Position numbers and translations under genes: made by a program. Source: a virus. Taken from it: a stretch of DNA of 53,467 bases. The notes under the pieces were generated by a model, which was given only the letters and a program-made list of their open reading frames with translations, did no database searches and was not told the origin of the DNA. Of this stretch, positions 28,217 to 30,199 are shown piece after piece. Location of the stretch: IMG/VR virus record IMGVR_UViG_3300021373_000910, positions 1-53,467 of that record; one strand, 5' to 3'. Every line of letters begins with the position of its first letter. Position 1 is the stretch's first letter.

Positions 28217-28605
28217 ATCCTTTTGATTATGTGAACTCGATCACGCATTCGAAGAAAAATTTAATGCGTGATACTGAAAACGACACACTTGCTGAACGTG
28301 GCTATGAGCCATGGCTTTCAAACAACGCACTGTCTTACTTTCCGGACACCGTTTTACATGCTAATCTTATGAACATGTATAGCGATCTGGATAATCGTCC
28401 ACAATTCGAATTTTTACTAAATAGTATTAGACCTAGAAAGAGATTTTCTAAGTGGATAAAGAAAAGTGATAACGAAGACTTGAAAGCAATATGCGATCAT
28501 TATCAATGCAACGAAACGGTTGGCCGAGAGTACTTGTCTTTGTTATCGTCTGAACAAATAGACGCTATTAAAAAAGAACAAGAACAAGGCGGTTTAAAAA
28601 GATGA
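28213..28605 (+). CDS. 62: Clamp loader small subunit gp62
   Basis: 130 residues, shorter than T4 gp62 (187) but typical of marine relatives. Recognised from the N terminus NPFDYVNSITHSKK, the ALSYFPDTVLHANLMN block (about 39-54) and the RKRFSKWIKK segment (about 76-85). It forms the complex with four gp44 subunits. Coupled by ATGA overlaps to both neighbours. Confidence 0.88.
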   Translation: MNPFDYVNSITHSKKNLMRDTENDTLAERGYEPWLSNNALSYFPDTVLHANLMNMYSDLDNRPQFEFLLNSIRPRKRFSKWIKKSDNEDLKAICDHYQCNETVGREYLSLLSSEQIDAIKKEQEQGGLKR

Positions 28606-29000
28606 CGTTATTGATTGAAGATATGGTTGAAGTCTCTTTAACTCATGAAGAGAATTTTTTAAAAGTTAAGGAAACCTTAACGAGAATTGGTATTGCTTCT
28701 AAGAAGGATAGAAAGCTATACCAATCTTGTCACATCCTGCACAAGCAAGGAAAGTATTACATCGTTCATTTTAAAGAACTCTTTATGTTGGACGGCAAGG
28801 CGCACGATTTTTCAGAAGACGATTGCGCAAGAAGAAACACAATTGTTACTCTACTTCAAGAATGGGGGTTGATTAAGGTCGTTCGACCCGAAATGATTTC
28901 TTCACCTTCTGCCCCTTTATCACAAATCAAGATACTCCCACATAAAGAAAAGAGCGAGTGGGAACTTGTTGCTAAATATAGCATTGGTAAAAAACGATAA
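28602..29000 (+). CDS. regA: Translational repressor RegA
   Basis: 132 residues (T4 RegA 122). RegA binds the start region of early mRNAs, including its own and gp44/62/45, and blocks translation. The core FLKVKETLTRIGIASKKD (20-37), LYQSCHILHKQGKYYIVHFKE and the ending KYSIGKKR match the family closely. Two starts are possible: ATG 28602, overlapping the gp62 stop, and ATG 28623, which exactly matches the N terminus length of T4 RegA (MVEVSL against MIEITL). The first is favoured by the overlap; the second by homology. Confidence 0.95.
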   Translation: MTLLIEDMVEVSLTHEENFLKVKETLTRIGIASKKDRKLYQSCHILHKQGKYYIVHFKELFMLDGKAHDFSEDDCARRNTIVTLLQEWGLIKVVRPEMISSPSAPLSQIKILPHKEKSEWELVAKYSIGKKR

Positions 29001-29298: not shown

Positions 29299-29661
29299 AT
29301 GTACGAATATAAGTGCATCATTAAAAGAGTACTCGATGGCGACACAGTTGATGTCGATATCGATTTAGGATTTGGAGTGTGGTTACGTGGACAGCGAATT
29401 CGTTTTTATGGAATCGATGCCCCCGAAACTAGAACTCGTGATTTAGAAGAGAAGGCTCGTGGCCATGTAGCACGAGATTTCGTCTCTCAATTCTTACCAG
29501 TCGAATCTATTCAAACACTAATCAGCAGAAAAGATGAAACTGGAAAGTACGGTCGCATACTTGGCGACTTTGTAGTATACGATGCTGTTTGGGATGCTCA
29601 AAGAAACTTGACAGAACTTCTATTGCGTGAAGGTCTTGTCGAGGTTTATGAATCTAAATAA
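29299..29661 (+). CDS. Micrococcal-nuclease-like (SNase) nuclease
   Basis: 120 residues, the usual length of a bare thermonuclease fold. Motifs: VLDGDTVDVDID at 11-22, RFYGIDAPE with Arg35 and Glu43, and TGKYGRILG with Arg86, the three catalytic residues of staphylococcal-type nuclease. It cleaves DNA or RNA to 3'-phosphates. No signal peptide, so it should act in the cytoplasm, perhaps in host DNA breakdown. It starts right after the preceding stop. Confidence 0.88.
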   Translation: MYEYKCIIKRVLDGDTVDVDIDLGFGVWLRGQRIRFYGIDAPETRTRDLEEKARGHVARDFVSQFLPVESIQTLISRKDETGKYGRILGDFVVYDAVWDAQRNLTELLLREGLVEVYESK

Positions 29662-29673
29662 GCAGTAAAATCG

Positions 29674-29681
29674 TATAAATA
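29674..29681 (+). promoter_or_regulatory. T4-type late promoter for hsp20
   Basis: Exact TATAAATA. A start site about 6-7 bases downstream would begin the transcript at the first hairpin (29688) of the hsp20 leader. Confidence 0.78.
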
Positions 29682-29687
29682 AGAAGC

Positions 29688-29776
29688 GATGACAGGGCGA
29701 TCTTGTCATCCACATCAGTGCGGAATGGTCCGGCTGAGAGACAACAACCTTGCTTAATATAAGGAGGCAAAAAATG
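29688..29776 (+). promoter_or_regulatory. ROSE-like RNA thermometer in hsp20 leader
   Basis: Three hairpins fill the leader. H1: GATGACA/TGTCATC (29688-29694 with 29704-29710). H2: CGGA/TCCG around loop ATGG (29721-29732), extended by CAG/CTG. H3: CCTTGCTT (29748-29755) pairs with the Shine-Dalgarno AAGGAGG (29761-29767) across a 5-base loop, with the single G at 29752 bulged and one U-G pair. That UUGCU-against-SD geometry with one extra G is the hallmark of ROSE thermometers that hold heat-shock mRNAs closed until the temperature rises. Not tested experimentally. Confidence 0.7.
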
Positions 29777-30199
29777 GTTAATACCCGAACTAAAATGTTT
29801 ACATTCCCCCATTCACGTTTCATAGGATTTGATCACGTATGGGATGAGATTGAGAAACTTACCGCCGTCGGTGCTAACGAGAAAGGATTCCCTAGGCACA
29901 ATATCGTAAAGCATGATGACACAAACTATTCGATGGAGTTTGCTTTAGGTGGTTACAAGAGAAAAGATCTGGAAATTGAAGTCCAGCCTGGCGTTCTCAT
30001 TATTCGAGGTAATCCAGACGAAGACACTAAGCAATATCTTCACAAAGGTATTACTACGAAAAAGTTCGTAGAAACATTTAGACTCGCTGACCATGTTGTC
30101 GTTGATGGAGCTGAATTCGTCAACGGTTTACTAGTCATTAGTTTGAGAGTTGAACTGCCCGAAGAACAGCGTCCGAGAAAGATCGAAATTAAAATCTAA
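29774..30199 (+). CDS. Small heat-shock protein (Hsp20/alpha-crystallin)
   Basis: 141 residues from ATG 29774; the alternative start 24 bases earlier lies within the RNA thermometer and lacks a ribosome site. Short N-terminal arm, alpha-crystallin domain at about 35-125 (strand blocks NYSMEFALGGYKRKDLEIEV, split at residues 47-66, and GLLVISL), and a C-terminal IEIKI tail, the I-x-I motif that docks oligomers. It is an ATP-independent holdase against protein aggregation, likely useful during late assembly at raised temperature. Hsp20 genes are known in marine T4-like phages. Confidence 0.92.
   Translation: MVNTRTKMFTFPHSRFIGFDHVWDEIEKLTAVGANEKGFPRHNIVKHDDTNYSMEFALGGYKRKDLEIEVQPGVLIIRGNPDEDTKQYLHKGITTKKFVETFRLADHVVVDGAEFVNGLLVISLRVELPEEQRPRKIEIKI

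Follow-up and report, generated by a model that had tools for sequence, protein, structure and literature searches.

A two-hairpin ROSE-like leader, likely an RNA thermometer, precedes the small heat-shock gene hsp20 of T4-like and other phages

The most closely comparable regulatory system described is the thermometer of the Pseudomonas ibpA leaders (Rfam family ROSE_3, RF02523), of the same two-hairpin design, which represses at 25 C and opens at 42 C; hairpin II alone is sufficient, and in P. aeruginosa ibpA deletion of a single G keeps that hairpin closed (PMC3669281). Rhizobial ROSE elements (RF00435), such as those on the Sinorhizobium fredii plasmids (L244 and L245), share with the phage leaders a GAUGCC..GGGUC hairpin with a bulged G, a hairpin with a bulged G that pairs UUGCU with the Shine-Dalgarno (SD) sequence, and a homologous Hsp20 downstream, but they have one more hairpin, in the middle, and their last stem is longer and reaches over the AUG region as well. 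RNA thermometers also precede small heat-shock genes in cyanobacteria, which as a phylum include the hosts of many of the related phages: a ROSE-like element in Anabaena variabilis and the hsp17 thermometer of Synechocystis, the latter, unlike the phage element, a single short hairpin (PMC4166951). No sequence comparison stands behind this likeness. The lambda cIII RNA thermosensor is likewise a temperature-responsive phage mRNA leader, but it uses two alternative folds, favors translation in the cold, and is unrelated in gene and structure (PMC4166951). Among cyanophages hsp20 counts as a core gene (PMC3037559). In the open-access literature searched, which leaves out most subscription journals, nothing was found that describes a thermometer, ROSE or otherwise, ahead of a phage hsp20, and priority is uncertain; a paper on the phylogeny of viral small heat-shock proteins and one on a cyanophage member make no mention of a thermometer.

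The window (the whole stretch of 53,467 nucleotides analysed) is a piece of a T4-like phage, with genes for the major head protein, a gp43-type DNA polymerase, the clamp loader, UvsX and RegA. Its hsp20 gene is placed between the RegA/clamp-loader genes and gp43 (Table 1), a neighborhood shared with phage C48C1 and S-PM2, and relatives of its product occur in 503 phage records. Immediately upstream of the leader is a gene for a staphylococcal-nuclease-like protein (29299-29661; PF00565, 3.1e-9). No psbA-type gene was found in eight contigs of the window's clade (up to 155 kb), and a cyanobacterial host is therefore not indicated. The leader resembles that of Pseudomonas ibpA in having two hairpins, a stable hairpin I, a UYGCU motif imperfectly paired with the SD, an unpaired start codon, a similar length and a small heat-shock gene downstream. 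In contrast to ibpA, the gene is phage-borne, the phages have a late or sigma-70-like rather than a sigma-32 promoter motif, the sequence has diverged below the Rfam cut-off, and the linker between the hairpins is invariant.

Table 1. Features of the hsp20 locus and late-promoter motifs in the window
Feature	Position	Strand	Remarks
RegA translational repressor gene	28602-29000		PF01818, 1.6e-42; short distance upstream of hsp20
T4-type late-promoter motif TATAAATA	29674-29681	+	transcript predicted to begin at about 29688
Extra 5' hairpin, 9 bp	29688-29710	+	fold: -10.8 kcal/mol, z -4.4
ROSE-like hairpin I	29715-29737	+	5-bp lower stem, bulged G29720, 3-bp upper stem
Linker AGACAACA between hairpins I and II	29739-29746	+	invariant alignment columns
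ROSE-like hairpin II, proposed thermosensing hairpin	29748-29767	+	CCUUGCUUA paired with UAAGGAGG
Bulged G within UUGCU, opposite the SD	29752	+	invariant in 35/35 leaders
SD AAGGAGG	29761-29767	+	paired inside hairpin II
Start codon ATG of hsp20	29774-29776	+	
hsp20, small heat-shock protein, 141 aa, regulated gene	29774-30199	+	Pfam HSP20 PF00011, 5.9e-15
TATAAATA late-promoter motifs before structural and other genes	4426, 9408, 10413, 11824, 36573, 40143	+	

Hairpin II pairs CCUUGCUU with the SD around the single bulged G, through four lower pairs (C29748-G29767, C29749-G29766, U29750-A29765 and U29751-G29764) and four upper pairs (C29753-G29763, U29754-A29762, U29755-A29761 and A29756-U29760), and ends 6 nt from the ATG. 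UUGCU at 29750-29754 fits the U(U/C)GCU motif by which ROSE thermometers are recognized; the definition of a fourU thermometer is not met, the SD being paired with CCUU-G-CUU with no UUUU run. The original prediction, which read the leader as a ROSE-like thermometer, had proposed two computational checks, folding and a search of the Rfam ROSE families. The single-sequence fold of the window is only weakly better than chance (z -1.78, with 10 of 200 shuffles equally good), and its centroid contains a competing UUGC/GCAA pairing that may shift the set point of this particular copy.

Since single-sequence folding is weak evidence, it is the comparison of leaders that shows hairpin II to be conserved by selection on structure. 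Eighty homologous hsp20 loci were taken from viral contigs and their leaders collapsed to 35 distinct sequences including the window, which align with few gaps; two loci (L002 and L003), DNA-identical to the window over 6.4 kb, were counted as the same virus. Across the 35 leaders 99.6% of pair cells are kept in the two hairpins, and 10 of the 16 pairs show compensatory changes, with 88 double-changed cells. The covariation score is 0.474 against 0.164 for shuffled alignments (none of 500 reaches it) and at most 0.107 when pairing partners are slid. In hairpin I, which shares its lower stem, bulged G and short upper stem with Rfam ROSE_3 and with other phages, seven of the eight pairs show compensatory changes and every cell is paired; hairpin II has 99.3% of cells paired and three such pairs, and RNAalifold, unprompted, returns the same two hairpins. 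Both the UYGCU motif and the bulged G are invariant. The linker, too, is identical in all 35 leaders although the stems vary, but it is not conserved in other clades. A pseudoknot between the loop of hairpin I and the linker (UGUC with GACA) was considered and dropped, as the loop varies while the linker is constant.

The conserved element thus comprises 29715-29767 and does not include the hairpin at 29688-29710, which has no exact match outside L002/L003, identical to the window in DNA, and copies of the window. Lying at the presumed 5' end of the mRNA, this extra hairpin might protect that end or stabilize the late transcript, a possibility only. The original prediction had three hairpins forming one element, the last hiding the SD behind a bulged G in the manner of ROSE, ahead of a phage small heat-shock gene. 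The three hairpins are present where it placed them, in sequence and in fold, but their unity held only in part, the 5'-most hairpin being peculiar to the window phage; the sequestered SD with its bulged G is borne out by fold, covariation and the invariant motif, and the nature of the gene by its Pfam match.

A reading at the level of DNA must also be considered, in which the conserved sequence acts as a regulatory site in the DNA, such as a Pho box. In its support, Table 2 of PMC10976474 lists the 5' arm of the S-PM2 hairpin, ATTCAAACTCGCTTAAATA, as a putative Pho box. In that study the S-PM2 gene was neither bound by PhoB nor responsive to phosphate, and the compensatory and G-U changes show selection on RNA pairing; this alternative is all but ruled out. 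The listed box, upstream of hsp20 (S-PM2d130, L087), coincides with the 5' arm of the ROSE-like hairpin, and the ROSE reading explains the false call.

In the Rfam search, the second proposed check, ROSE_3 was the best of 4227 families for the window under permissive conditions (18.9 bits, E 0.086), with both hairpins and the start codon aligned in register. Other phage leaders score higher: 26.9 bits (E 0.002) for a close relative (L246), 30.6 bits for DSL-LC03, 35.1 bits for L092, whose Hsp20 is 85% identical to that of S-PM2, and 39.9 bits (E 8.8e-5) for the distant phage L188, where, as in L246, ROSE_3 is again the best family. None of these, nor the window, meets the ROSE_3 gathering score of 43, and a search at the curated cut-off therefore misses all five; at gathering thresholds Rfam gave no match in the window, ROSE (RF00435) included, and only a tRNA in 20 relatives. 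Because ROSE_3 matched nothing in any of 14 control genomes, rhizobial plasmids served as the positive control, and their hsp20 leaders match Rfam ROSE at 84-86 bits. By that family's own cut-off the window element lies outside ROSE_3. It is best described as belonging to a viral branch of ROSE-like elements that, as far as we can tell, is new as a class.

A wider set was assembled by scans with the Hsp20 of S-PM2, HTVC008M, HTVC115P and S-TIM5, together with 25 named phage leaders. Hairpin II was scored mechanically by its lower stem, bulged G, C-G/U-A upper stem and contiguous 3' strand, and this test was positive in 83 of 89 distinct phage hsp20 leaders and in 4 of 421 other gene starts. 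Many leaders within one clade are related, and the count by Hsp20 cluster (17-18 of 18) is a fairer gauge of independence; 17 of the 18 clusters pass outright, and the exception, L110, still forms the hairpin, which there contains a U-G pair besides the bulged G. Both hairpins precede hsp20 in 124 of 140 distinct phage leaders but in none of 422 control gene starts, a control set that leaves out loci repeating hsp20, which had inflated an earlier count. The carriers include T4-like cyanophages (P-SSM2, Syn1, S-RIM2), pelagiphages and the smaller HTVC115P. Most of the remaining 16 leaders have one hairpin or a looser form, and the hsp20 leader of Vibrio phage PWH3a-P1 is without the element. 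The ROSE-like assignment is thus supported by covariation, the invariant bulged G and the best Rfam family, and it reaches further than the original prediction stated, the element being found in most phage hsp20 leaders tested.

A DNA-level search of the phage records matched nothing, and the case accordingly rests on protein-guided retrieval. In 12 whole phage records strong matches of our model R1 fell only at hsp20 leaders; weak second matches, with pairs broken or partial, were judged to be chance. No second model was made from other clades, MAFFT having misaligned the 3' arms.

Several individual records deserve separate mention. Pseudomonas phage 30-2 (L230; 287 kb, outside the T4-like group) has hairpin I and AUCUUGCGUAAAGGAGAU before its hsp20, a shorter ROSE-like form. 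The unverified record 'Pseudomonas phage Y7' (L083, OQ572409.1), counted in the phage set, contains, with its Hsp20 gene, a complete Rfam ROSE_3 (69.2 bits) and may be bacterial DNA filed as phage. The unverified 'Campylobacter phage A18a' (L222, MG065686.1) has an Hsp20 gene with a ROSE-like bulged-G hairpin, which was unexpected, and the identity of the record is doubtful. A contig in a Flavobacteriales MAG (L091, DQKQ01000195.1) encodes a 67% identical Hsp20 with a leader that fails the strict hairpin test; it is probably a phage contig binned with the bacterium.

A second alternative is that the leader is an operator for RegA or another RNA-binding protein, so that hsp20 would be controlled by timing and not by heat. 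In its favor, a RegA gene is near hsp20 in the window, and the invariant linker resembles a protein-binding site. Against it, no RegA match was found in HTVC115P, S-TIM5 or Pseudomonas phage 30-2; of these the first two pass the bulged-G hairpin test and the third has the shorter form by eye, and the linker is not conserved outside the clade. Because these phages lack a RegA match, RegA offers no general explanation, and we regard this reading as very unlikely.

Among plasmid-borne proteins, the window Hsp20 has its best matches in rhizobia, at about 41% identity. In distant phage clades hairpin I takes the form [stem]-UGCC-loop-GGG-[stem] with a bulged G, as in rhizobial ROSE; the rhizobial hairpin is GCCGAUGCCAAUUGGGUCGGC (GAUGCC..GGGUC), and its counterpart in phage L177 is AAGAUGCCAAUUAAGGGUCUU. 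From this we infer common descent of the phage and bacterial hsp20 gene and leader from an old shared ancestry, of which neither direction nor date is settled. The hint of host origin in the original prediction holds only in this sense, given how many phage lineages carry the element; a recent capture of hsp20 from its host by the window phage is unsupported. A search of genome contigs for Hsp20 gave a single match, the contig in the Flavobacteriales MAG, and chromosomal host relatives are thus unsurveyed.

The late-promoter motif upstream of the leader is one of 11 copies in the window, against 2.6 expected (none of 100 shuffles reaches 11), several of which lie some 35-50 nt ahead of genes, structural ones among them, and their positions are a usable map of the window's late units. 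A late motif also precedes the leader in the pelagiphages HTVC008M and Mosig and in phage L188, while most close relatives have instead, at the matching place, a sigma-70-like TTGACa-N17-TATAtAt; by a crude count their TTGACA box lies 16-18 nt before the TATA box, at the same distance from hairpin I. The leader element is thus kept while the promoter changes. The late promoter of the original prediction is thus present as a motif; that transcription starts just before hairpin I remains an inference.

The structure, position and conservation of the leader are shown, and we consider it likely that it works as a short two-hairpin ROSE-type RNA thermometer. The heat-dependent step is inferred by analogy: having the same design as the Pseudomonas ibpA leader, the phage leader is expected to act like it. 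Below a threshold temperature the SD would be held in hairpin II, out of reach of the 30S ribosome; warming would loosen the hairpin around the bulged G and the U-G pair, opening the SD for translation of Hsp20. Hairpin I, upstream, is itself stable and is built like its counterpart in bacterial ROSE. The translational heat induction that the original prediction proposed has not been shown, and no expression data for the phage leader were found. In computed melting, SD opening rises with temperature in a manner resembling the Pseudomonas-type leader of L083, but in the window it climbs gradually and only to 0.05% at 37 C and 0.7% at 50 C; control leaders open on heating as well, so the simulation has no power to discriminate. 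The real threshold could lie well under 42 C in a marine host.

These limits leave room for a third alternative, a fixed translational damper in which the SD is hidden at all temperatures and Hsp20 synthesis is lowered without any sensing. The low computed opening, even at 50 C, favors it, and conservation of structure alone cannot separate a damper from a thermometer. A damper, however, has no need of a specific bulge, whereas almost every phage clade retains the bulged G and UYGCU; these match experimentally tested ROSE elements (PMC3669281), and the controlled gene encodes a heat-shock protein. We therefore consider the damper unlikely and prefer the thermometer.

The late-promoter motif would confine the hsp20 message to the late, virion-building phase; if the leader is a thermometer, the window phage would then produce its chaperone only late in infection and in the warm. 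ROSE elements before hsp20 throughout the T4-like marine phages would give lytic phages a specific and testable means of sensing temperature on their own, and the phage leaders offer natural thermometers for bench use. We lean, by a narrow margin, towards a bolder reading, in which a ROSE thermometer has long belonged to the core of marine phage hsp20 and has travelled with that gene among T4-like cyanophages, pelagiphages and unrelated tailed phages, its promoters, sigma-70-like or late, being exchanged along the way. In much of the ocean's phage community, the synthesis of a chaperone that possibly serves virion assembly would then depend on the temperature of the sea, which raises the question of how warming affects the assembly and fitness of marine phages.
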